37,655 nucleotides of DNA from assembly GCA_021784895.1 (NCBI GenBank), contig JAJYHG010000016.1:1-37655 (forward strand), in the 5' to 3' direction. Positions 7,924 to 27,694 of this stretch are shown piece after piece; the stretch's first letter is position 1; each line of letters opens with the position of its first letter. Made by a program: the position numbers and the translations under genes. The notes beneath the pieces were generated by a model, which had not been told where the DNA came from, did not search any database, and was given only the letters and a program-made list of their open reading frames with translations. Origin of the DNA: Actinomycetes bacterium. Its GTDB lineage: Bacteria > Actinomycetota > Thermoleophilia > Solirubrobacterales > Solirubrobacteraceae.

Positions 7924-9258
7924 ATGACCACTGAAACCCCGCAGATCACGGGTGCTGATGACGCATCTGGAGCCGACTCGCTGACGATCGTCGACAACCG
8001 CACCGGCAGGACCTATGAGGTCCCGATCGAGGACGGCACGATCCGCGCCACCGAGCTGCGCAAGATCAGGGTGGATGACGACGACTTTGGGATCATGACC
8101 TATGACCCAGCGTTCATGAACACCGCTTCGTGCCGCTCGTCGATCACCTACATCGACGGGGACAAGGGCATCCTCGAATATCGCGGCTACCCGATCGAGC
8201 AGCTGGCGGAGAAGTCCACCTACCTGGAGGTCGCCTACCTGTTGATCTACGGGCGTCTGCCCCTGCAGCACGAGCTGGACGACTGGACGCACCTGATCAC
8301 GACCCACACCTTCGTCCACGAGAACATCAAAGACTTCATGCAGGGCTTCCGCTACGACGCGCATCCGATGGGGATGCTGCTGGCGGCGGTCGGCGCGCTC
8401 TCGACCTTCTACCCCGAGGCCAACCAGATCAAGGACCGCGAGCTGCGGATGATGCAGGTCGTGCGCCTGGTCGCGAAGATGCCGACGCTGGCCGCGTTCG
8501 CCTACCGCCACAACCGCGGCATGCCCTATGTCTATCCGGACAACGATCTGAGCTATGCGGGCAACTTCCTCTCGATGCTCTACAAGATCGCCGAGCTCAA
8601 GTACGAGCCCGACCCGCGGCTCGAGCGCGCGCTGGACGTGCTCTTCATCCTCCACGCCGACCACGAGCAGAACTGCTCCACCAGCGCGGTCCGCAGCGTC
8701 GGCTCCTCGCAGGTGGACCCGTACTCGGCCACCGCGGCCGGGATCGCGGCGCTGTATGGCCCGCTGCACGGCGGCGCCAATGAGGCGGTCCTGCGGATGC
8801 TGCGCCGGGTCGGCGGCCAGCACAACATCCCCGAGTTCATCGCCGGCGTGAAGGCCGGCCACGAGCGGCTGATGGGCTTCGGCCACCGCGTCTACAAAAA
8901 TTTCGACCCGCGCGCGAAGATCATCAAGCGGGCCGTTGAGGATGTCTTTGAGGTCACCGGCAAGAGCCCGCTGCTGCACGTCGCCACCGAGCTCGAGAAG
9001 ATCGCGCTCGAGGACGAGTACTTCATCTCCCGCAAGCTCTATCCGAACGTCGACTTCTACTCGGGGCTGATCTACGAGGCGCTGGGCATGCCGGTGGAGA
9101 TGTTCCCGGTGCTGTTCGCGATCGGCCGCACCAGCGGCTGGATCGCCCAGTGGCTCGAGATGATCGACGACGAGGAGCAGAAGATCGCCCGCCCGCGCCA
9201 GATATATACCGGCGGGCGAGGGGTAGACTACGTGCCGATGGCGGAGCGCGGGCGATGA
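7924..9258 (+). CDS. gltA: Citrate synthase
   Basis: 444 residues, type II (hexameric-type) length with an N-terminal beta domain. Catalytic residues are His247 in HADHEQN, His282 in GPLHGGANEA, and His321 with Asp328 in GFGHRVYKNFDPR. It condenses acetyl-CoA and oxaloacetate to citrate at the entry of the TCA cycle. ATG 7924 follows the ribosome site GAGAGGA at good spacing. The stop overlaps the cupin start (ATGA), so the two are translationally coupled. Homocitrate or methylcitrate synthases look different around the active site, and this reads as a normal GltA. Confidence 0.96.
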   Translation: MTTETPQITGADDASGADSLTIVDNRTGRTYEVPIEDGTIRATELRKIRVDDDDFGIMTYDPAFMNTASCRSSITYIDGDKGILEYRGYPIEQLAEKSTYLEVAYLLIYGRLPLQHELDDWTHLITTHTFVHENIKDFMQGFRYDAHPMGMLLAAVGALSTFYPEANQIKDRELRMMQVVRLVAKMPTLAAFAYRHNRGMPYVYPDNDLSYAGNFLSMLYKIAELKYEPDPRLERALDVLFILHADHEQNCSTSAVRSVGSSQVDPYSATAAGIAALYGPLHGGANEAVLRMLRRVGGQHNIPEFIAGVKAGHERLMGFGHRVYKNFDPRAKIIKRAVEDVFEVTGKSPLLHVATELEKIALEDEYFISRKLYPNVDFYSGLIYEALGMPVEMFPVLFAIGRTSGWIAQWLEMIDDEEQKIARPRQIYTGGRGVDYVPMAERGR

Positions 9259-9698
9259 GCGAGCAGGCGACAGGGATCACATCGGCGCGGCTCGGCGCGG
9301 CACCCGGTGAGCGTTTCAACCGGCTGCGCGACCCGCTCGGCGTCGTCTCCTTCGGGATCAACCAGATGGTGCTCGCACCCGGGCAGCGCGGCCGCATCCA
9401 CCGCCACAAGCACCAGGAAGAGGTGTATCTGGTGCTGGAGGGCACGCTGACGCTGATGGTGGAGGGCGAAGCGCACGAGTTCACGGTCGGCGAGCTGGTC
9501 CGCGTTGCGCCGAGTGCCCGGCGGCAGCTGGTCAACCGCCACCGCTCGCCGCTGTCGCTGCTTGCTCTCGGTGGCCACACCGACCACGCCCACGAGCCGC
9601 GTGATGGTGAGGTGTTCGCCGCCTGGGAGGACCAGCAGGCGGGCTCGCCGGAGACGATGCCGGCGCCCGCGGACCTGCCCGATTCTGAGCTGCGCTGA
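9255..9698 (+). CDS. Single-domain cupin protein
   Basis: 147 residues from the ATG overlapping the citrate synthase stop (ATGA). Cupin motif 1 is clear: HRHKHQEEVYLVLEG around residues 49-63 with His51, His53 and Glu56 as likely metal ligands. Motif 2 (GELVRVAPSARRQLVN) keeps Gly and Pro but has Arg/Gln where the third metal histidine is expected, so metal binding may be altered. The C-terminal tail (about residue 105 on) is acidic and Pro-rich. Function is unknown. Coupling to gltA suggests a link to central carbon metabolism, which I cannot specify. Confidence 0.8.
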   Translation: MSEQATGITSARLGAAPGERFNRLRDPLGVVSFGINQMVLAPGQRGRIHRHKHQEEVYLVLEGTLTLMVEGEAHEFTVGELVRVAPSARRQLVNRHRSPLSLLALGGHTDHAHEPRDGEVFAAWEDQQAGSPETMPAPADLPDSELR

Positions 9699-9755: not shown

Positions 9756-10577
9756 TTAGCGCGTCCGTGCATTCAACGTGTCGCGCAACGCCTCGCCGAC
9801 GAGGTTGAAGGCGATCACGGTCACCATGATCATCACGCCGGCGGGATACACCTCCCACCAGTAGCCGTCGAGGAGATAGGCCGTGCCCTGGTAGAGCATC
9901 CCGCCCCAGGTTGCCGCCGGAGGCGCCAGCCCGAAGCCCAGGAAGCTGAGCGTCGCCAGCAGCACGATCGCGTCGGCGACCTGGAAGGTCGCGTTGACGG
10001 TCACCGTGCCGAGCGCGTTGGGGAGCAGGTGGCGCACGATCGTCCAGCGCCGGGGTGCGCCCATCGCCCGAGCCGCGTCGATGTAGGGCCGGGATCTGAG
10101 GCTGAGCGTCTCACCGCGGATGAGGCGCGCCGGCCCGAGCCAGGAGAGCAGCGAGATCACCCCGATCAGCAGCCAGATCGTCGGCTGCGCGACGGTGGCC
10201 AGGTAGATCAGGACGAAGATCGCGGGCAGCGCCAGCAGCGTGTCCACGATCCGCATCAGCAGGGCGTCGATCGCGCCGCCGCTGAAGCCCGCCAGCGCAC
10301 CCCAGAGCGCGCCGAACAGGGTTGCGAGCACCGCCACCGCCAGCCCGATCTCGAGCGACGCGCGCCCGCCGACCATGAGCCGGCCGAGCACGTCGTAGCC
10401 GTTCGCGTCGGTCCCGAGCGGGTGGGCCGCGCTGGGCGCCATGTTGGTGATGGCGACGTTCGCCTGGAGCTGGTTGGTGGGGTCAACGAGCGGCCCGGCG
10501 AAGCAGAAGGCAAAGAGCAGCACGAGCACTGCCGCCCCCGCGACCCCGAACCGGTGGTGGGCGAAGCGCTGGATCAT
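9756..10577 (-). CDS. ABC transporter permease, DppC/OppC type
   Basis: 273 residues with about six membrane helices. The start has the DppC layout: a cytoplasmic start, one helix at about 11-30, then an extracytoplasmic loop with HPLGTDANGYDVLGRLMVGG. The EAA loop that docks the ATPase is at about 163-187 (RPYIDAARAMGAPRRWTIVR). The start overlaps the stop of the DppB-type gene by four bases (ATGA). With the receptor and DppB partner it forms a peptide/nickel-family importer, here under a TPP riboswitch. The operon ends here without an ATP-binding subunit. Confidence 0.93.
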   Translation of the reverse strand: MIQRFAHHRFGVAGAAVLVLLFAFCFAGPLVDPTNQLQANVAITNMAPSAAHPLGTDANGYDVLGRLMVGGRASLEIGLAVAVLATLFGALWGALAGFSGGAIDALLMRIVDTLLALPAIFVLIYLATVAQPTIWLLIGVISLLSWLGPARLIRGETLSLRSRPYIDAARAMGAPRRWTIVRHLLPNALGTVTVNATFQVADAIVLLATLSFLGFGLAPPAATWGGMLYQGTAYLLDGYWWEVYPAGVMIMVTVIAFNLVGEALRDTLNARTR

Positions 10578-11542
10578 GGCTGCTTGGGGCTGCCCGCGCC
10601 GGGGGTGCCGACGCGCGGGTCAAGCAGCGCGTAGGCCACGTCGGCGAGCAGGCTGCCGGTCACCGTTGCCACTCCCACGAGCAGCGTGATGCCCAGCTCG
10701 ACCGGATAATCGGCGTTGGCGGCGGCAACGTAGTAGCTCAGCCCGACGCCGGGGATGTTGAAGACGTATTCGACCACGAGCCCCGAGGTCAGGAGCATCG
10801 GCACCGACATGCCGAGCAGCGTGACGACCGCCAGCAGTGAGTTGCGCAGCACGTGGCGGCTCAGCACAAGCCGCTCCGGGAGGCCCTTGGCCCGTGCCAG
10901 GCGGATGTAGTCCTCGGCCAGCGTCTCGATCGCCGCCGAGCGCATGTAGCGGCTGAACCAGGCGACGTTGACGAGCGTGAGCGTGAGCACCGGGAGCACG
11001 AGCCCGCGCGGATCGCTGAGGATCCCGGCCGGGCCCGGCGGGCCGGCTTCCGGCGGCAGCAGGTGCGCGCCGGTGCTCAGAGCTGCGATCAAGAGCAGCG
11101 CCAGCCAGTAGGAGGGCATCGAGTAGAGCGCGAGCGTCGCCGCGGTGACCAGCTGATCACCGGCCCGGTTGCGGCGCACGGCCTGGGCGATCCCGAGCGG
11201 GAGCGCGATCGCGAGTGCGAGCGCGAACCCGAGGCCGACCAGGATCAGGTCGTTGGGCGCCTGGCTCGCGATCAGCGAGCCGACACTCTGGTTTAGCCGG
11301 TAGGAGTAGCCGAGGTCGCCGTGGAGCAGGTGCCAGAGGTAGTCGAGGTACTGGACCGGGAGGGGGTGGTCGAGGCCGTTGGCGGCGTCGAAGGCTCTGA
11401 CCGCCTGGTGGTCTGCGCGCGGCCCGAGGATCGCGTGCGCGAGGCTGCCGGGCGTCAGCCGCTCGAGGATGAAGACCACCAGCGTGACGCCCAGCAGCAC
11501 GCCGGCCGCCTGGCCGGTGCGCCGCAGCAGGAAGCCGCTCAT
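10574..11542 (-). CDS. ABC transporter permease, DppB/OppB type
   Basis: 322 residues with about six membrane helices. DppB hallmarks are the N-terminal LLRRTGQ helix, PVQYLDYLWHLLHGDLGYSY (the conserved GDLG at 75-78), and the EAA loop DYIRLARAKGLPERLVLSRH at 211-230. It pairs with the following DppC-type permease. The start codon lies within three tandem 11-nt repeats (see that entry). ATG 11542 is the copy in frame, while the ATG 11 bases earlier yields only four codons before a stop. A thiamine-related substrate is suggested only by the riboswitch. Confidence 0.92.
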   Translation of the reverse strand: MSGFLLRRTGQAAGVLLGVTLVVFILERLTPGSLAHAILGPRADHQAVRAFDAANGLDHPLPVQYLDYLWHLLHGDLGYSYRLNQSVGSLIASQAPNDLILVGLGFALALAIALPLGIAQAVRRNRAGDQLVTAATLALYSMPSYWLALLLIAALSTGAHLLPPEAGPPGPAGILSDPRGLVLPVLTLTLVNVAWFSRYMRSAAIETLAEDYIRLARAKGLPERLVLSRHVLRNSLLAVVTLLGMSVPMLLTSGLVVEYVFNIPGVGLSYYVAAANADYPVELGITLLVGVATVTGSLLADVAYALLDPRVGTPGAGSPKQP

Positions 11543-11571: not shown

Positions 11572-13455
11572 TCAACGGGTGAAGTACCACTCCTCGGGGC
11601 TCAGGTAGCCGTAGGCGTTCGGGGTCGTGCCCGCGAGGTTTGCCTGGAAGGTCTCGAGCGTCCCGGGAGAGGGCTGCCAGAAGTCGGGCAGCGCCAGGCG
11701 GACCGCGTTGGCGTAGGCGTTGAGCGTGTGCTGCGCGTCGCGCGCCGGGCTCGTGGTGCTCGCCCGGATCAGCCGGTCGATCGCGGTGCTCGAGTAGCTG
11801 CCGACGTTCCCCAGCGCGCCGGTCTGGAAGATCTCCTCGCCGGTCGGGTAGTGGTCGGGAGCGAACACCCAGGCGCTTCCGTACTGGCCGAGCTGCCAGG
11901 AGCAGGCCGCCATGTGGGGCGCGCACGGCTCGATCTGGGCCGCGACCGTCGCGGCCGTCACCTGCTTGAGCGCGAGCTCGATGCCGGCTTGGCGGGCGAC
12001 CGACTGCAGGTCGACCATCGCGTTGTCGGTGTAGGACATGCCGTCCGGGTACATCAGCGTGAAGCGCAGCTGCTGGCCCTGGCGGATGCCGGAGCCGCAG
12101 TCGCCGCGCTTGCTGCCGGGGTGCACGCAGCTCGTGATGGCGCCCGGGCGGACCCGCCAGCCGTGGGCGGCGAGGATCCGCCGGGCCGCGGAGACGCTGA
12201 ACGGGTAGGGGTTGGTGTGCGCCTGCGCGTCCGCGTAGGGGTTGGCGGGCTGCGCGGGTACGGGGCTGTAGGTTGGAACGCCCAGCCCCTGGTAGTAGGC
12301 ACGGATCCAGCCGCTCTGGTTGACGAGGTGCTGGAAGGCCTGGCGGAAGTAGAGCTGCCTGAAGACCGGACCGGCCGTGGGGTTGTTGAAGTTGGGCTCG
12401 AAGTAGTCAAAGCCGTAGGGATAGACGGTCGCGAGCCGGTATCCCTGTGCGCGCAGCGCCGCCGCCTGGGGAGCGTCGGTGTCGGGGACGTAGCCAACCG
12501 AGATCTGCGCCTGTGAGCCGCCCTGGCCGCCGCGCGCGGGCCCCGCCTCCAGCAGCGAGAACTCGGCCGTCGCGCTCGTGAAGGGCAGCTCCACGAAGCG
12601 GGCCAGCCGTGGCCGGTCCGGCCCGTCGTAGAGCTTGTTGGGCACGAACGTGGCGCGGCCGTCGGCGGTCAGCTGGGCGAGCTTCCAGGGGCCGTCGACG
12701 ACCTGCCAGATCGGGCTCGAGGCGTAGCCCGAGACCCGTTTGGCCCGGGCGTTGAGGAAGGCGTATACGGCCCGGGCGCCGGCAGGTGTTGCGTCCGGCT
12801 GTGCCGCCAGGGCCGGGCAGCCGCTATTGCTGTGACAGCCGCTGCTGCTCGTGCGGTCCCAGGCCATCGGCAGCGGCGTGATCTGCGAGAGCTCGTTGTC
12901 GGTGAACCAGACCGGGTTGTAGCCCCGGTCCAGGCGCAGGCGCACGGTGCGCGGGCCGGTCGCGCGGTAGGAGACGACATTGTCCGGGAAGCCTCCCGGC
13001 ACATACGAGGCCCAGTCGGCCCTGTTGGCCCTGAGCAGGTTGATCCAGAAGATCACGCCGCGCGCGCTCACGGGCGTGCCGTTGGACCAGCGCGCGCGCT
13101 TGAGCGTGATCGTGACGACGCGGTTGTGGTCGCTGTAGACCGGTGCGTCACCCAGGGAGAGCGAGTAGTCGACCCCGGGCCGGTTGCCGTTGCCGAACCA
13201 GTAAAGCGGCCGGTACATCAGCGTCTGGAAGTCGTAGACGTTCTCGTTGGTGTAGTAGGCGCCAGAGATCAGCGGGAAGATGTAGTTCGGTGGCTCGAGC
13301 GGCTGCTCGGCCCAGTAAGCGGTGCCGCCGCGCGCCACGGCCGCAGCGCTGCGTACCGCGGCCGCGCTGTGATGCGCCGCCCGTGTCGACCCGCATGCGG
13401 CGATGAGTGTGGCGCAAACCACTACGACCACCGGACCGCGCAACTTGACAGTCAT
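11572..13455 (-). CDS. Solute-binding lipoprotein of a peptide/nickel-type ABC importer (SBP_bac_5)
   Basis: 627 residues. The signal peptide has lipobox LIAAC, lipidated Cys21. The body has the family-5 receptor layout, including NVYDFQTLMYRPLY near residue 75, TITLKRARWSNGTPVSARGV in the first third, and a late region with FAPDHYPTGEEIFQTG. It is unusually rich in Tyr and Trp. Three close cysteine pairs (GCHSNSGC, CVHPGSKRGDC, CAPHMAAC) look like disulphide-closed loops, an addition I do not associate with typical DppA. It is the first gene behind a TPP riboswitch, so the ligand may be thiamine, a thiamine precursor or a conjugate. An oligopeptide is the default expectation from family alone. 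It is followed by DppB and DppC permeases. Confidence 0.9.
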   Translation of the reverse strand: MTVKLRGPVVVVVCATLIAACGSTRAAHHSAAAVRSAAAVARGGTAYWAEQPLEPPNYIFPLISGAYYTNENVYDFQTLMYRPLYWFGNGNRPGVDYSLSLGDAPVYSDHNRVVTITLKRARWSNGTPVSARGVIFWINLLRANRADWASYVPGGFPDNVVSYRATGPRTVRLRLDRGYNPVWFTDNELSQITPLPMAWDRTSSSGCHSNSGCPALAAQPDATPAGARAVYAFLNARAKRVSGYASSPIWQVVDGPWKLAQLTADGRATFVPNKLYDGPDRPRLARFVELPFTSATAEFSLLEAGPARGGQGGSQAQISVGYVPDTDAPQAAALRAQGYRLATVYPYGFDYFEPNFNNPTAGPVFRQLYFRQAFQHLVNQSGWIRAYYQGLGVPTYSPVPAQPANPYADAQAHTNPYPFSVSAARRILAAHGWRVRPGAITSCVHPGSKRGDCGSGIRQGQQLRFTLMYPDGMSYTDNAMVDLQSVARQAGIELALKQVTAATVAAQIEPCAPHMAACSWQLGQYGSAWVFAPDHYPTGEEIFQTGALGNVGSYSSTAIDRLIRASTTSPARDAQHTLNAYANAVRLALPDFWQPSPGTLETFQANLAGTTPNAYGYLSPEEWYFTR

Positions 13456-13460
13456 TTCTT

Positions 13461-13546
13461 GCTCCCTCCGCCGGCATGACCCGGATCAGGTTCTACGGTC
13501 GGCGCCGTCCGGCGCCCTCTCAGCCCAAGTGGACTCCCGCGTTGTT
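13461..13546 (-). ncRNA. TPP riboswitch (THI element)
   Basis: Minus-strand RNA upstream of the receptor gene. The conserved 5' part is CGGGAGUCC...GGGCUGAGAGG, with the invariant CUGAGA that binds the pyrimidine end of TPP. A variable P3 stem follows (GGCGCC, GGAC loop, GGCGCC). The 3' part is ACCUGAUCCGGGUCAUGCC then GGCGGAGGGA, matching the THI consensus ACCUGAUCNGGNUAAUGCCNGCGNAGGGA closely. The GGAGGGAG at the 3' end is only about 7-14 bases from the start codon, so ligand binding could hide the ribosome site. P1 is not obvious. High TPP should lower expression of the importer. Confidence 0.93.
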
Positions 13547-13779: not shown

Positions 13780-14364
13780 CTAGCTGCCGGGCACGACTAG
13801 GTCGAAGCCTGCTGGCAGCCGTGAGGCAAAGTACTCACGTTCGGCGGCCAGCCAGGTCTCGTCCCAATCTGCGGGGTCGATCCGGCCGCGCAGGCGCGCC
13901 AGCCTGATGGGCTCCGGCGTGTCTACCAACACGGCGTGCGTTACCAGGTCGGCGAGCGCTGGGGAGGCCGCGGAGACGCCCTCTACGATCACCAGCAGCG
14001 CCCCCGAGGCGAGCGCGGGTTCGAGCGCGTCTCGGCGCAGCGCTGCCCAGTCGTAGTAGGCGGCGAGCGGTCGTCGGTCGCTCGACGGTGCCGGCGGGTA
14101 GCGCAGCCGGCTGTCGGTGGCGATCAGCTCGGCCGCGAGCGCACCCGCCACCTCGCGCGCAATGGTGGTCTTGCCCGCGGCGCCGTGGCCATCGATCGCG
14201 ACCACGAGCTGGTCGCCCGCCTGACGCCCCGCGCCTGCCTGACGCCCCGCGCCTGCCTGACGCCCCGCGCCTGCCTGACGCCCCGCGCCTGCCTGACGCC
14301 CCGCGCCTGCCTGAGCCTGCCACTCGCGGATGGCGGCCGTGATCGCTTCAGCGCCAGGGGTCAC
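13780..14364 (-). CDS. Uridine-kinase-like P-loop protein with an AGAGRQ repeat
   Basis: 194 residues from GTG 14364, which overlaps the stop of the upstream gene (GTGA). Residues about 19-50 are five tandem AGAGRQ hexapeptides. The P-loop DGHGAAGKTT follows (starting about residue 58), then ATDSR, a YDW segment, VIVEGVSAASP and a C-terminal DLVVPG. The layout matches small P-loop kinases annotated as uridine kinase-like. A paralogue lies in the GNAT fusion at 35070, which shares the (T)D, YDW, IEGV, Trp-Glu and DLVV landmarks. The substrate is unknown. The repeat is presumably a flexible linker; its 18-bp unit can change copy number without shifting the frame. Confidence 0.75.
   Translation of the reverse strand: MTPGAEAITAAIREWQAQAGAGRQAGAGRQAGAGRQAGAGRQAGAGRQAGDQLVVAIDGHGAAGKTTIAREVAGALAAELIATDSRLRYPPAPSSDRRPLAAYYDWAALRRDALEPALASGALLVIVEGVSAASPALADLVTHAVLVDTPEPIRLARLRGRIDPADWDETWLAAEREYFASRLPAGFDLVVPGS
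14221..14310. repeat. 18-bp coding tandem repeat, five perfect copies
   Basis: The unit CTGACGCCCCGCGCCTGC is repeated without a mismatch at 14221, 14239, 14257, 14275 and 14293, followed by a partial copy. On the minus strand it encodes AGAGRQ within the N-terminus of the P-loop protein. Perfect identity implies recent expansion by slippage. Confidence 0.9.
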
Positions 14365-15038
14365 AGCACGAGCGTGCCGGCGTTGTGCCGCAGCCAGGCG
14401 GCGTGGGTGCGGTGGTCAGGGCAGTACCGTGCCACCAGCGCCCAGAAGCGCGGCGAATGGTCGTGCACCGCCAGGTGGCAGACCTCGTGCCAGACGACGT
14501 AGTCGAGCACCTCTGGTGGTGCCAGCAGCAGCCTCCAGTTGAAACTGAGCACCCCGCCGGTCGAGCAACTTCCCCAGCGTGTGCGCTGGTCGCGGATGGC
14601 CAGGCGCGTGTAACGCAGGCCGCTCGAGGCGCAGGCGCGGTCCAGGCGCTCCCCGATCTCGCTGCGCGCCATGTGCCGGTACCAGCGCTCGATCGCGGCC
14701 GCCTGCTGCGGGCCTTCGGGCACGAGCAGCGTGGCGCCGCGCCGGCTCACCCGGGTGTGCCCAGCTCCGGGCACGACGGTCAGGCTCGCGCCCAGGTAGG
14801 GCAGCGTGCCGCCGCGATCGAGCACCGCTGCGCGCTGGCGGCTGGCGTTGCGCTGCTGACGTTCGATCCAGGTGCGTAGGTCGCGTACCGCCTGCTCGGC
14901 AGCGCCCAGCTCCAACGCCTGCGGCAGCACCACCTCGACCCTGCCCGCACGGTCCACACTCACGCGCACCCGGCGGGCACGCGATGAGCGGCGCACGTCG
15001 TAGGCGAGCAGGGACGCCGAATCGGCCAGCACAGGCAC
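14361..15038 (-). CDS. YgjP-like (DUF45/M48-type) zinc metallopeptidase
   Basis: 225 residues from GTG 15038. The N-terminal half is beta-rich (YDVRRSSRARRVRVSVDRAG). The core has the family signature RWGSCS at 154-159, FNWRLLLAPPEVLDYVVWHE, and the zinc site HEVCH (His184, Glu185, His188), with the HDHSPRFW segment supplying the third ligand region. These proteins are predicted metal-dependent hydrolases; the E. coli relative YgjP has no settled substrate. A longer frame upstream would overlap the divergent GNAT gene. GTG 15038 is supported by TACCCT eight bases upstream. Its stop overlaps the P-loop gene start. Confidence 0.85.
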   Translation of the reverse strand: MPVLADSASLLAYDVRRSSRARRVRVSVDRAGRVEVVLPQALELGAAEQAVRDLRTWIERQQRNASRQRAAVLDRGGTLPYLGASLTVVPGAGHTRVSRRGATLLVPEGPQQAAAIERWYRHMARSEIGERLDRACASSGLRYTRLAIRDQRTRWGSCSTGGVLSFNWRLLLAPPEVLDYVVWHEVCHLAVHDHSPRFWALVARYCPDHRTHAAWLRHNAGTLVL

Positions 15039-15046
15039 GGATAAAG

Positions 15047-15056
15047 AGGGTACGGT
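15047..15056. promoter_or_regulatory. Overlapping divergent -10 elements
   Basis: TACCCT (minus strand, 15052-15047) lies eight bases before the peptidase GTG. TACGGT (plus strand, 15051-15056) lies eleven bases before the GNAT ATG at 15068. The two hexamers share two base pairs, so polymerase can occupy only one direction at a time. Confidence 0.4.
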
Positions 15057-15067
15057 CCAGTGACGAC

Positions 15068-15490
15068 ATGCCGCTGATTCCTGAGCCCCCTGAGCGGATC
15101 TCCGACGAGCTGATCGAGCTGCGCCCGATCGCCGGCTGGGACATCCCGGAGGTGCTGATCGCCCACCAGGACGATTGCGAGCTCTACCGCCGGCTGGGCA
15201 TGTCACGGCCGCCGACCGGGGCGGTGCTAGGCACGGAGGTTGAGCGGGCCGATGCGCTGCGGCGCGCGGGCGAGGCGCTCAAGCTGTCGATCGTCGAGCC
15301 CGGTGCCAACACCTGCCGCGGGCGTGTGGATGTGGTCTTCGACTGGTCGCACGGGGGCGCGATCGTGCGCGTCTGGGTCGCCCCGCAACTGCGCGGCCGT
15401 GGGTATGAGCAGCGCGCCGCCGAGCTGACCTGCGACTGGCTGCGCGACAGTGCTGGCCTGCGCGAGTTGCAGGTCGAGCTGCTGACCTGA
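15068..15490 (+). CDS. Small GNAT-like acetyltransferase
   Basis: 140 residues. The N-terminus ELIELRPIAGWDIPEVLIAH is typical for the first strand and helix of GNAT proteins. The last third has VRVWVAPQLRGRGYEQRAAELTCDWL, where RGRGYE corresponds to the acetyl-CoA pyrophosphate loop (Q/R-x-x-G-x-G/A). The protein ends shortly after the following strand (LRELQVELLT), so the C-terminal GNAT part is short. Substrate unknown. Divergent from the metallopeptidase gene, with no ribosome site visible. Confidence 0.65.
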   Translation: MPLIPEPPERISDELIELRPIAGWDIPEVLIAHQDDCELYRRLGMSRPPTGAVLGTEVERADALRRAGEALKLSIVEPGANTCRGRVDVVFDWSHGGAIVRVWVAPQLRGRGYEQRAAELTCDWLRDSAGLRELQVELLT

Positions 15491-23425: not shown

Positions 23426-26400
23426 ATGGCCGTAGAGACAGGCACTTATCAGGTTGTGATGCCGGCGATGGGCGACTCGGTGGTCGAAGGCACCATCCTT
23501 GAGTGGCACCGGCAGGAGGGCGAGAGCATCGCCGAGGGTGAGACGCTCGTTGAGATCTCGACCGACAAGATCGACGCCGAGGTGCCCGCCCCGGTCTCGG
23601 GCACGATCGTCAAGCTCTACGCCGCCGCCGGCGAGACCGTCAGCGTCGGCGGGCCGCTGGCTGAGATCGCGCTCTCCGGCAACGGCAACGGCGCGGCGCC
23701 GCCGGCCGCGCCGGCGCGGGGCGACGAGGCCGCCCAGATAATCGACATCGTCACCCCCGGCGGCAGCGAGAGCGTCACCGAGGGCACGATCCTCGAGTGG
23801 TCCGTCAAGGTCGGCGACACGGTTGCCGACGGTGACACGGTGGTCGAGATCTCGACCGACAAGGTCGACCTGGAGCTGCCCGCGCCGGCCGCGGGCACGA
23901 TCACCGAGATCCTCTTTGCGGAGGGTGCCACGGTCCGCGTCGGCGAAGTGATCGCGCGGATCGCGGTGGGCCAAGCTGCGGCCGCGGCGGGTGCTCCCGC
24001 GCTCACCCCGTCGCCCCAGCCCCACGCCGGCGCACCGATTACCGGCGCAACATCTGCGGTAGACGGGACGAGCGCGACCGGCGTGGCCGCGACCCCCGTT
24101 GCCCAGCGGGCTGCGGCCGGGCTCGGCGTCAACCTCGCCGGGCTGACCGGCAGCGCCCGCGGCGGGCGCGTGACCAAGGACGATGTGCTGGCTGCGGCCG
24201 CGGGCGTGGCCGAGCTTCCGCCCGGCGCGCAGAAGCTCAGGGGCGGCGCCGCCGTGCTCGCACGCTACATGGACGAGAGCCGGCAGATCCCGACCGCGAC
24301 CTCCTTCCGCACGCTGGCCGTGACCACGCTTGACGCCCGCCGCCGGCAGCTCAAACAGGCCGGCAAGCGGGTCTCGTTCACGCACCTGATCGCCTACGCG
24401 GTCGCCCGGGCGGCGACCGACGCGATGCCGGTGATGGCGCACCACTTCGCGCAGGCGGGCGGCGAGTTCTACCGGGTTGACGATGGCCAGGTCAACCTCG
24501 GCCTCGCGGTCGACGTCGAGAAGCGCGACGGCAGCCATACGCTGATGGTGCCGGTGATCCGCGACGCCGGCAGGCTCGACTTCGGGCAGTTCCTGGCCGC
24601 CTACGACGAGCTGGTCGAGAAGGCGCGCACCAACACGCTCGCCGCCGACGACCTGGTGGGCGCCAACGTCTCGCTGACTAACCCCGGCGGCATCGGCACG
24701 GTCGCCTCGGTGCCGCGGCTGATGGCCGGGCAGGGCACGATCGTCGCCACCGGCTCGATCTCCTACCCGGTGGGGCTGGAGGCGATCGGCGCTCAGATCG
24801 GGGCCGAGAAGGTCATGACCATGACCTCGACCTACGACCACCGGATCATTCAGGGCGCCGAGTCGGGCCGCTTCCTGAAGGCCGTAGAGGAGTATCTGCA
24901 GGGCTCATACGGCTTCTACGAGTCGGTCTTCAGTGCACTCGCGGTGAGCCTGCCGCCGCTCCCGGCCAGGCCGGCCCTGGCGAGCGCTGCGCCGGCCACC
25001 ACGCCGGTCGCCGCAGCGCCAGCGGGCGCGGCGGCGGCGACCGCAGCGAGTGAGGAGCTGCTGCAGGCCGTGCAGGCGGCCACCTCAGTGCTGAAGGCAC
25101 ACCGCACGCACGGCCACCTGGCGGCGCGGCTTGACCCGCTCGGGCGCGCGCCCGGCGGGGACCCGGCGCTCGACCCGGCCAACATCGGCCTGACGCCTGA
25201 GCTGATGGCGCAGATCCCGACGCGAATCCTGCGCGTCCACGTTCCGGGTGCCACCTTTGATCAGGCGCTCCCGCGCCTGCGCGAGATCTACTGCGGGCCG
25301 ATCGGCTACGAGAGCGAGCACATCTCCGCCCACCGCCAGCGGCTGTGGCTGCGCGAGGCGATCGAGTCCGGCACCTACCGCAAGCCGCTGAGCGCCGCCG
25401 AGCAGCGGCGGCTGCTCGAGCGCCTGACGGCCGTCGACTCATTTGAGCGCTTCATGGGCCGCGCCTACCTCGGCGCCAAGCGCTTCTCGGTCGAGGGGCT
25501 CGACATGACGGTGCCGATGATCGATGAGATCGTCCGTCTCTCAGGCGAGCACGGCGCCCGCGAGGTCGTTATCGGCATGGCCCACCGTGGCCGGGTGAAC
25601 GTGCTGGCCCACAACCTGGGCCGCTCGTATGAGTCGCTGTTCGCGGAGTTCGAGGGCGCCAACACGCTCGATGCGATCACCACCATCCCGGACGGCGGCA
25701 CCGGCGACGTGAAATACCACCACGGCGCCTCGGGCACCTACCAGCTGCCGAGTGGTGAGTCGCTGATCGTGCGGCTCGAGTCCAACCCGAGCCACCTGGA
25801 GTTCGTCGCGCCGGTGGTGGTGGGCGCCACGCGTGCCGCGCAGACCAACCGCCAGGGTGCGCACGCCAGTCAGGACACCAACGCCGCCGTGCCGGTGGTG
25901 CTGCACGGTGACGCTTCGTTCCCGGGTCAGGGTGTGGTCGCCGAGACGCTCAACCTGCAGGCACTCGACGGTTACACGGTGGGCGGCACCATCCACATCA
26001 TCCAGAACAACCAGGTGGGCTTCACGACCGACCCCGAGGACTCGCGCTCGACCACCTGCGCTTCGGATCTGGCGAAGGGCTTTGACGTGCCGATCATCCA
26101 CGTCAACGCCGACGACGTGGAGGCCTGCATGGCGGCGGTGCGCCTGGCGTTTGCCTTCCGCAAGGAGTTCGGCCACGACGTGGTGATCGACCTGGTCGGA
26201 TACCGCCGCCACGGCCACAACGAGGGCGATGAGCCGCTCTACACGCAGCCCGAGATGTACGCGCTGATCAAAGCGCACGAGCCGGTGCGCGAGCTGTTTG
26301 CCAAGCAGCTGATCGCGGCTGGCGTGCTCAGCGAGGCCGAGGTCAAGCAGATCGCCGACGCCTGCTGGGCGACCCTGACCGAGCACCACGAGCGGATCAG

Positions 26401-27694
26401 GGCGCGCCTGTCGGCCGCCAAGGACCACGCCGGCGAGCAGACCACCGGCGAGTACAAGCTCGACACCGGCGCGGCCCAGGAGGTCTCAACCGCGGTCGAC
26501 GCCGAGAAGCTGCGAATCCTCAACGAGGAGCTCTTGGCCGTGCCCGAGGGGTTTGAGGTCAATCGCAAGCTGGCGGCGCAGCTCGCCGAACGGCGCAAGG
26601 CCTTCAGCGACGAGCACGGGCCGATCAACTGGGCGCACGCCGAGGCGCTCGCGTTCGCCTCGCTGCTCGGCGAGGGGATCCCGCTGCGACTGACCGGCCA
26701 GGACACCGAGCGCGGCACCTTCAGCCAGCGCCACCTGGTGCTGCACGACGCGCGCACCGGCCGTGAGCACTCGGCGATCCAGCACCTGCCCGGCGCGCTC
26801 GCGACCATGGAGCTGCACAACAGCCCGCTGTCGGAGGCGGCCTGCCTGGGCTTCGAATACGGCTACGCGCAGGAGGCGCCCGAGACGCTGGTGATGTGGG
26901 AGGCCCAGTTCGGCGATTTCGCCAACGGCGCCCAGGTGATGATCGACCAGTTCATCACCTCGGGCATGGCCAAGTGGGGCGTCGCCATGCGGCTGACGCT
27001 GCTCCTGCCCCACGGCTATGAGGGCGCCGGCCCCGAGCACTCCTCGGCCCGGCTCGAGCGCTTCCTGCAGCTCGCCGCCGAGGGCAACATCCGGGTGGCG
27101 AACCTGACCACGCCCGCCCAGTACTTCCACCTGCTGCGCCGCCAGGCGCGGATCGCGCAGCAGCGGCCGCTGGTGATCATGACCCCCAAGAGCCTCCTGC
27201 GCCTGCCGGCGGCGGCATCGCACATGGAGGACCTGACCGGCGGGCGCTTCCAGCCGGTGCTGGCCGAGCCGGACCTCGACGCAGAGCAGGTAACGCGCCT
27301 GATCCTCTGCAGCGGCAAGCTCTACTACGACTTCATTGGCAACCCGCTGCGCGCACAGACGCCGGGGGCCGCGATCGGGCGGGTGGAGATGCTCTACCCG
27401 TTCCCCGAGCGCGAGATCCTGGGGCTGGTGGCGAGCTACCCGCGGCTGGAGGAGGTCGTCTGGGTGCAGGAGGAGCCCCGCAACATGGGGGCGCGCGCCC
27501 ACATGTCGGCCCGGCTGCGGCAGATCCTGCCGCCGCAGCTGCGCTTCGGCTACGTGGGCCGGCCCGAGCGGGCGGCCTCCGGCGAGGGCTACCCGGCCGC
27601 GCACGCGCGCGAGCAGAACCGGATCGTGACCACGGCACTCGACCTGCTGCGGCCGGTCTCGCAGTTCCCGCTGGCGCAGCCGGGCGAGCGCTGA
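23426..27694 (+). CDS. Fused 2-oxoglutarate dehydrogenase E2-E1 with two lipoyl domains
   Basis: 1422 residues. Order: lipoyl domain 1 (5-85, Lys48 in EISTDKID), lipoyl domain 2 (104-182, Lys146 in EISTDKVD), Ala/Pro linker, E3-binding domain (222-258, TPVAQRAAAGLGVNL...GGRVTKDDVL), and E2 succinyltransferase core (275-495). In the last, the active-site DHRIIQG (His472) has Gln where classical E2 has Asp, as in mycobacterial Kgd. A linker follows, then the ThDP-dependent E1 (about 545-1422: GMAHRGRVNVLAHN, SNPSHLEFVAPVVVG, GDASFPGQG with Asp829, NNQVGFTT at 861-868). One chain should carry out decarboxylation and transfer to CoA, needing only E3 from elsewhere. Mycobacterial and corynebacterial Kgd/OdhA lack lipoyl and E3-binding domains, so this fusion is fuller. 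The sequence is continuous with no frameshift. Confidence 0.95.
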   Translation: MAVETGTYQVVMPAMGDSVVEGTILEWHRQEGESIAEGETLVEISTDKIDAEVPAPVSGTIVKLYAAAGETVSVGGPLAEIALSGNGNGAAPPAAPARGDEAAQIIDIVTPGGSESVTEGTILEWSVKVGDTVADGDTVVEISTDKVDLELPAPAAGTITEILFAEGATVRVGEVIARIAVGQAAAAAGAPALTPSPQPHAGAPITGATSAVDGTSATGVAATPVAQRAAAGLGVNLAGLTGSARGGRVTKDDVLAAAAGVAELPPGAQKLRGGAAVLARYMDESRQIPTATSFRTLAVTTLDARRRQLKQAGKRVSFTHLIAYAVARAATDAMPVMAHHFAQAGGEFYRVDDGQVNLGLAVDVEKRDGSHTLMVPVIRDAGRLDFGQFLAAYDELVEKARTNTLAADDLVGANVSLTNPGGIGTVASVPRLMAGQGTIVATGSISYPVGLEAIGAQIGAEKVMTMTSTYDHRIIQGAESGRFLKAVEEYLQGSYGFYESVFSALAVSLPPLPARPALASAAPATTPVAAAPAGAAAATAASEELLQAVQAATSVLKAHRTHGHLAARLDPLGRAPGGDPALDPANIGLTPELMAQIPTRILRVHVPGATFDQALPRLREIYCGPIGYESEHISAHRQRLWLREAIESGTYRKPLSAAEQRRLLERLTAVDSFERFMGRAYLGAKRFSVEGLDMTVPMIDEIVRLSGEHGAREVVIGMAHRGRVNVLAHNLGRSYESLFAEFEGANTLDAITTIPDGGTGDVKYHHGASGTYQLPSGESLIVRLESNPSHLEFVAPVVVGATRAAQTNRQGAHASQDTNAAVPVVLHGDASFPGQGVVAETLNLQALDGYTVGGTIHIIQNNQVGFTTDPEDSRSTTCASDLAKGFDVPIIHVNADDVEACMAAVRLAFAFRKEFGHDVVIDLVGYRRHGHNEGDEPLYTQPEMYALIKAHEPVRELFAKQLIAAGVLSEAEVKQIADACWATLTEHHERIRARLSAAKDHAGEQTTGEYKLDTGAAQEVSTAVDAEKLRILNEELLAVPEGFEVNRKLAAQLAERRKAFSDEHGPINWAHAEALAFASLLGEGIPLRLTGQDTERGTFSQRHLVLHDARTGREHSAIQHLPGALATMELHNSPLSEAACLGFEYGYAQEAPETLVMWEAQFGDFANGAQVMIDQFITSGMAKWGVAMRLTLLLPHGYEGAGPEHSSARLERFLQLAAEGNIRVANLTTPAQYFHLLRRQARIAQQRPLVIMTPKSLLRLPAAASHMEDLTGGRFQPVLAEPDLDAEQVTRLILCSGKLYYDFIGNPLRAQTPGAAIGRVEMLYPFPEREILGLVASYPRLEEVVWVQEEPRNMGARAHMSARLRQILPPQLRFGYVGRPERAASGEGYPAAHAREQNRIVTTALDLLRPVSQFPLAQPGER

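Follow-up and report, generated by a model that had tools for sequence, protein, structure and literature searches.

A TPP riboswitch before a peptide-type ABC receptor suggests clade-specific recruitment for thiamine uptake in Solirubrobacterales

The stretch of DNA analysed here (37,655 nucleotides, below called the window) carries a TPP riboswitch directly before the gene of an SBP_bac_5 receptor, that is, a receptor of the family used by peptide-type ABC importers. The same arrangement recurs in a small group of actinobacterial genomes, relatives of Conexibacter, in which thiamine synthesis seems to have been lost. Vitamin B1 uptake in these organisms may thus have passed to a peptide-type importer. 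The features of the window to which we refer below are as follows.

7924..9258, plus strand: citrate synthase (PF00285, E 4e-141), one flank of the insertion, placed by synteny
9756..10577, minus strand: DppC-type permease, 273 aa (PF00528/PF12911), its gene overlapping that of DppB by 4 bases
10574..11542, minus strand: DppB-type permease, 322 aa (PF00528/PF19300)
11572..13455, minus strand: SBP_bac_5 (cluster C) lipoprotein receptor, 627 aa (PF00496, E 1e-31)
13446..13546, minus strand: TPP riboswitch aptamer (THI element) with the flanks of the model (RF00059), found before 8/8 orthologues
13465..13469, minus strand: Shine-Dalgarno core GGAGG, whose AGG is the 3′ strand of helix P4, with the ATG 9 nt further on
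13780..14364, minus strand: P-loop kinase-like gene (PF13671), in the inserted block and outside riboswitch control
14361..15206, minus strand: YgjP-like gene (PF01863), the other flank of the insertion, placed by synteny

The element in the window is a real TPP riboswitch standing before an SBP_bac_5 gene. RF00059 (TPP) is the sole Rfam match in the window (13546..13446 on the minus strand, 54.8 bits, E 3.2e-8); in the covariance scan it covers the full-length model (1–105) and lies 0.5 bit above the gathering score of 54.3 bits. An earlier note on this DNA had recognised a THI element in the minus-strand leader by its conserved blocks and had named a covariance-model search as a check. The blocks (CUGAGA, ACCUGAUC, AUGCC and GGAGGGA) are all present, and the score is above the threshold. 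In its own genome (2.81 Mb in 287 contigs, 90% complete) this is the only RF00059 match found. The folding energy of the leader resembles that of shuffled sequences (z 0.00), so support for the element comes from the covariance model together with compensatory changes, seen at 12 of the 22 consensus pairs when 35 TPP elements from the order are compared.

The architecture of the leader points to a mode of switching. Because the AGG of the Shine-Dalgarno core lies within P4, this helix, when closed on its ligand, would hide the ribosome site directly. The P4 pairs CCU/AGG are invariant in all 35 TPP elements of the order. A script scored the spacing of 9 nt between GGAGG and the start codon (ATG or GTG) at seven of the eight orthologues, and in the eighth (G008), where the contig ends, the same spacing is visible by reading. 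In relatives, a number of thiC and thiO genes share this layout, with similar spacing. From this position we infer that closure of P4 masks the ribosome site and that the switch follows OFF logic. At low TPP the Shine-Dalgarno core in P4 would be exposed and the receptor, with dppBC where present, would be translated; bound TPP would shut P4 and turn translation off.

The receptor frame starts with an ATG immediately after the riboswitch, and its product proved to be a DppA/SBP_bac_5-type lipoprotein, as proposed from the letters of the sequence. PF00496 scores over its cut-off, and the cluster C fold spans the whole mature protein in the predicted structure (a model from 78 sequences, which replaced an earlier one from 15 sequences with a pLDDT of 69.9). 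The nearest solved structures are peptide binders, and sequence identity to the listed solved receptors is 13–19%. The protein does not belong with the receptors of ThiXYZ systems: its family is PF00496 and not PF09084 (NMT1/THI5).

Peptide-anchor residues were set aside as a clue to the cargo, as the alignment to solved receptors is not firm in that region. The idea that an aromatic-rich protein with three close Cys pairs might form a specialised pocket had to be dropped as well. C443/C453 occur in 71/71 relatives outside the clade, C511 and C518 in 63 and 62 of these 71, and C207/C213 in only four of seven orthologues; the aromatic content of the orthologues (11.2–12.0%) is not above the mean of relatives (12.5%). 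Clade-specific positions number 27, four of them acidic (D325, D350, E353 and D591) and two aromatic, which is no clear enrichment of either kind and too weak to indicate a cargo.

When 61 genomes were searched with the receptor, matches appeared in 18 and orthologues in eight, which we call carriers: the window's own genome (G000), G006, G008, G012, G013, G020, G024 and G026. The six other full-length orthologues are 65–78% identical to the window receptor, and that of G020 is split over two contigs. In seven genomes RF00059 precedes the orthologue on the same contig (the window, L003–L007 and L025). In G008 the two lie on separate contigs, the riboswitch terminal on C174 and the receptor terminal on C161, whose ends are alike over 53 bases but for two differences. 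With this overlap the riboswitch stands before 8/8 orthologues, which is the outcome of the survey of relatives for THI elements upstream of SBP_bac_5 genes that had been proposed.

The carrier elements score 51.4–61.0 bits; five exceed the Rfam cut-off, three lie 0.1–2.9 bits under it (51.4–54.2), and the core motifs are invariant in all eight. Each carrier genome has one TPP match only in the scan of the 61 genomes, whose filters drop some weak matches and could have passed over a second, weak element. At 20 other receptor loci scanned in the carrier genomes no TPP match was found (L014 comes without its upstream part). Seven of the carriers are drafts, 69–93% complete. The remaining one, G012 (Conexibacter sp. 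S30A1, NZ_CP097127.1), is a single contig with 93% completeness, and six of the drafts are MAGs labelled Solirubrobacterales or 'Actinomycetes'.

In a pyruvate-kinase gene tree, seven of the eight carriers form one clade (100/99) with G004 as its sister, G020 having no marker match. Seven orthologous receptors also form one clade (SH-aLRT 100) in a quick tree that gave long-branch warnings elsewhere. The carriers therefore probably go back to one evolutionary event, and the eight occurrences are not eight independent cases. In the aptamer tree, the aptamers of the receptor genes join those of thiO (93/86), and their own grouping is weak (52/0). The likeliest account is a single recruitment of an Opp/Dpp-type receptor for the import of intact thiamine or a thiamine phosphate.

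The same genomes seem to have lost thiamine synthesis. Family searches found ThiC in none of the eight carriers, against 12 genomes in the whole set of 61 (the eight included). No carrier has a ThiG match above 200 bits, compared with 18 of the 20 other genomes of the genus (all except G004 and G021). What the carriers do show are short partial-model ThiG matches of 26–30 bits (Pfam cut-off 23), and we read these as other TIM barrels because many genomes with a true ThiG have such a second match. ThiD, too, is found in 0/8 carriers and in 18/20 other genomes of the genus (it is absent also from G010 and G022, and partial in G018). The G012 genome, a single contig, carries most weight for these absences, the other seven being drafts. 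In the absence of ThiC, full-scoring ThiG and ThiD, intact thiamine or thiamine phosphate would be the likeliest need. The window's own genome encodes a 1422-aa frame (23426–27694, plus strand) with lipoyl, acyltransferase (2-oxoacid dehydrogenase) and 2-oxoglutarate dehydrogenase E1 domains, the last of these belonging to a TPP-dependent enzyme.

The ThiY that most relatives have in a TPP-linked ThiXYZ operon is found in 0/8 carriers. All eight hold an NMT1-type receptor 33–36% identical to ThiY (in G000 a match of 122 residues only), a kind of paralogue that many relatives carry alongside ThiY. In G012 a second NMT1-type receptor, 33% identical to ThiY, lies at G012:C1:283209-284177 and is listed with an in-frame TGA; the only TPP match of this genome is elsewhere.

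ThiL exceeds its cut-off in six of the eight carriers; G000 gives a partial match (119.5 bits) and G008 only a weak one (77.4 bits). All eight have a ThiE-like protein (ThiE/TenI family), in G000 as a fragment. That of G012 has 398 aa and reaches 125.2 bits, short of the ThiE cut-off of 145.1 bits, and its long C-terminal part reads as membrane-spanning; the five carrier proteins that were aligned differ from the ThiE of relatives at sites conserved there. A putative dihydrolipoamide dehydrogenase gene, identified by eye, adjoins the ThiE-like gene in four of five neighbourhoods, and in the fifth (G012) this frame is masked by another ORF. ThiE-like proteins with a long, apparently membrane-spanning C-terminal part were noticed at L066 (2515–3708) and as counterparts at L067–L070, in genomes that lack ThiC, full-scoring ThiG and ThiD.

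The 61 genomes gave 96 TPP matches, eight of them at this receptor, and we read 42 of the other 88. By eye and from translations, 29 of these 42 precede thiC (9) or thiO (20), and 13, which are longer, precede operons starting with a ThiXYZ-type ABC ATPase gene; 12 of these 13 have a ThiY homologue on their contig. In the sister genome G004 the TPP element (L084) precedes a ThiX-type ATPase gene. ThiD is present there, no full-scoring ThiG and no ThiE match were found, and the thiC frame (on C143) contains a stop, so the pathway of G004 may already be failing.

In another family of the order, G039, G042, G045 and G048 lack ThiC, full-scoring ThiG, ThiE and ThiD and have one TPP match each, which in G039, G042 and G045 (L072–L074) precedes a ThiXYZ-type operon. 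In these genomes a similar loss appears to have been met by another importer.

The thiamine link does not extend to more distant homologues of the receptor. The best 80 of 241 relatives gave 73 loci at 39–51% identity. A model built on the 35 TPP elements detects the riboswitch at six orthologues (one of them cut by a contig end, 23.6 bits). At the 73 wider loci it found no TPP riboswitch with default filters; 71 of them include the relevant position, the exceptions being L135 and L165. L092 is the half of G020 without upstream sequence, and a hit at L152 (13.1 bits, E 0.69) was taken as chance. Scanning 16 of these loci with Rfam at the gathering threshold is a weak control, as three of the eight true elements fail it too.

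Among 44 wider-family genomes, in which 45 of the 73 loci lie, ThiD exceeds its cut-off in 37, or in 38 at E 1e-10. Downstream of the receptor, 11 of 36 wider-family loci with full flanks have no DppB, DppC or ATPase match. With no TPP element at 73 loci and ThiD in 37/44 genomes, the wider family was rejected as a group of thiamine importers in general, and the thiamine link thus belongs to one clade. The idea of an undescribed class of thiamine uptake system is therefore not supported as a whole, the TPP link being a feature of the orthologues. Conservation of the receptor in relatives without a THI element, named in the earlier note as evidence against its proposal, is seen among distant homologues and not among orthologues.

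The surroundings of the receptor gene point to an inserted block. In the carriers the order is YgjP, P-loop kinase-like gene, TPP element, receptor and, where present, dppB and dppC, followed on the opposite strand by a gene whose sequence reads as cupin-like (in the window on the plus strand, ending at 9698) and by citrate synthase. G026 was read only to the cupin-like gene, and G008 and G020 were each read on two contigs. The synteny markers cupin9258- and orf7867- are antisense frames of the cupin-like and citrate synthase genes and serve purely as positional landmarks; the strands in their labels are opposite to those of the genes, and their blank Pfam results carry no meaning. YgjP and citrate synthase are both present in 7 of 16 non-carrier regions (G001, G009, G010, G016, G023, G027 and G028), and at these empty sites receptor, dppBC and kinase are missing in 7/7. 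The sites in G009 and G023 hold 1–2 kb of other sequence between the flanks.

The P-loop kinase-like gene lies upstream of the receptor, at most about 1.3 kb away, in all eight carriers and was matched in none of the 16 non-carrier regions, a count that covers just those regions. Its product scores 29.2 bits for PF13671 (cut-off 27), with weak uridine-kinase-like P-loop matches. The gene travels with the riboswitch–receptor block, and its substrate might be thiamine. There is a slim chance that the whole block is a B1 salvage island, in which an Opp-type thiamine receptor would be paired with a P-loop, non-orthologous thiamine kinase feeding ThiL.

The permease genes dppBC follow the receptor in six of the eight carriers; in G026 and G008 (L227 1373–3680 and L090 79–2333) they are missing and the cupin-like gene comes immediately. 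An ATPase of the oligo_HPY peptide type is found neither on the receptor's contig in the seven draft genomes, the window contig included, nor within about 46 kb of the receptor in the one-contig genome of G012. Such ATPases occur elsewhere in all eight carrier genomes, so the receptor system likely uses a shared ATPase encoded away from it. The description as a peptide-family ABC importer is accordingly right about the DppB/DppC-type genes behind the receptor; the operon has no ATPase, and in two of eight carriers it has no dppBC.

Taken as a whole, it is quite probable that the receptor imports thiamine or a thiamine phosphate, and that this is a clade-specific recruitment of an Opp/Dpp-type protein and not a broad new class. 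In the ancestor of one Solirubrobacterales clade that lost thiamine synthesis, an Opp/Dpp-family receptor gene would have come under a TPP riboswitch, which was probably of the thiO type present in this lineage. Outside the cell the receptor would catch thiamine or a thiamine phosphate; import would fall to DppB/DppC or to a shared permease, together with a shared ATPase encoded elsewhere, and ThiL would make TPP from the monophosphate. Of this scheme we infer the cargo, the shared ATPase and the phosphorylation of thiamine to the monophosphate by a kinase.

The retention of a ThiE-like protein, whose substrates are apparently not made in the carriers, counts against a thiamine cargo. It would fit better if the cargo were a precursor or breakdown product (HMP, hydroxyethylthiazole or formylaminopyrimidine), which this protein, kept in 8/8 carriers (a fragment in G000), would join to thiamine monophosphate. 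The TPP-linked importer of relatives is, moreover, of the ThiXYZ type, and ThiXYZ is a pyrimidine importer. However, ThiD, which is needed to phosphorylate HMP, is absent from all eight along with ThiC and full-scoring ThiG, so a precursor route would need two precursors and a kinase. The ThiE-like protein of G012 also stays below the ThiE cut-off, and the five aligned ones depart from residues conserved in relatives. We regard a precursor cargo as unlikely. The prediction that riboswitch control means a thiamine-related cargo thus gains from the loss of thiC, thiG and thiD in 8/8 carriers, and HMP, which had been among the proposed cargoes, gives way to intact thiamine or thiamine phosphate.

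The receptor might instead be an ordinary importer of peptides or other solutes that came under TPP control incidentally, with thiamine entering by another, constitutive route. The nearest solved structures being peptide binders, the NMT1-type paralogue that remains, and the wider family at 39–51% identity, with no riboswitch at 73 loci (71 holding the place) and ThiD in most of 44 genomes, are in keeping with such a role. It is nevertheless improbable, as the synthesis genes are gone in all eight carriers, the riboswitch is kept at this gene even where dppBC are missing, and TPP riboswitches are described as controlling thiamine synthesis and the genes of known and predicted transporters (PMC3766115). 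Far more improbable still is an aptamer that is a relic or a chance look-alike and no longer regulates. The window element clears the Rfam cut-off by just 0.5 bit, and its folding energy is like that of shuffles. Yet in eight species, whose receptors differ from that of the window by up to 35%, the element has kept both its location and the 9-nt spacing, its core motifs do not vary among the eight, and compensatory changes run through the elements of the order. Thiamine or thiamine phosphate as the cargo of a regulated importer thus remains our preferred reading.

ThiBPQ, ThiXYZ, YkoEDC, ThiT and PnuT are TPP-riboswitch-linked importers of thiamine or its precursors. The system described here resembles them in its riboswitch control and in its presence where synthesis genes are lacking, and it differs in having a receptor from another family, SBP_bac_5. 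That family also serves the Opp/Dpp importers (AppA, DppA, OppA, NikA, GbpA, SapA and others, cluster C), from which the present receptor is set apart by its TPP riboswitch, by the lack of an ATPase in the operon and by its 13–19% identity to solved receptors. ThiB, ThiXYZ and ThiV are given among TPP-linked importers in PMC2211319.

PMC3766115 describes a precedent, RibXY of Chloroflexi, a vitamin-type ABC importer without an ATPase of its own and tagged by a riboswitch, as here, which in one genome offsets a missing biosynthetic operon; RibXY, however, belongs to riboflavin and the FMN riboswitch and is homologous to ThiXYZ, not to Dpp. For the acI actinobacteria, which are thiamine auxotrophs, it was a THI element that led to PnuT-like genes being proposed as the importer (PMC5301498). 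There, too, the element precedes a gene annotated for another solute, but the protein is a carrier of the Pnu family and not an ABC receptor. Two further papers concern glutathione, which raises both ThiB and an oligopeptide transport protein, with no riboswitch link shown (PMC3284542), and a thiamin transporter of Candida under a TPP riboswitch (PMC5997356). Among the matches listed in open-licence literature, none has a TPP riboswitch before an SBP_bac_5 gene, which is not proof of absence.

If the proposed reading is true, a B1 importer that annotation would call a peptide transporter has arisen within the versatile Opp/Dpp receptor family, so that B1 uptake in such auxotrophs would be missed, and the riboswitch tracks function while the protein family changes. 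The clade would then also offer a series for the fixing of auxotrophy, from a pathway that is kept, through one that is half-lost (G004), to one that is lost and accompanied by a recruited receptor.
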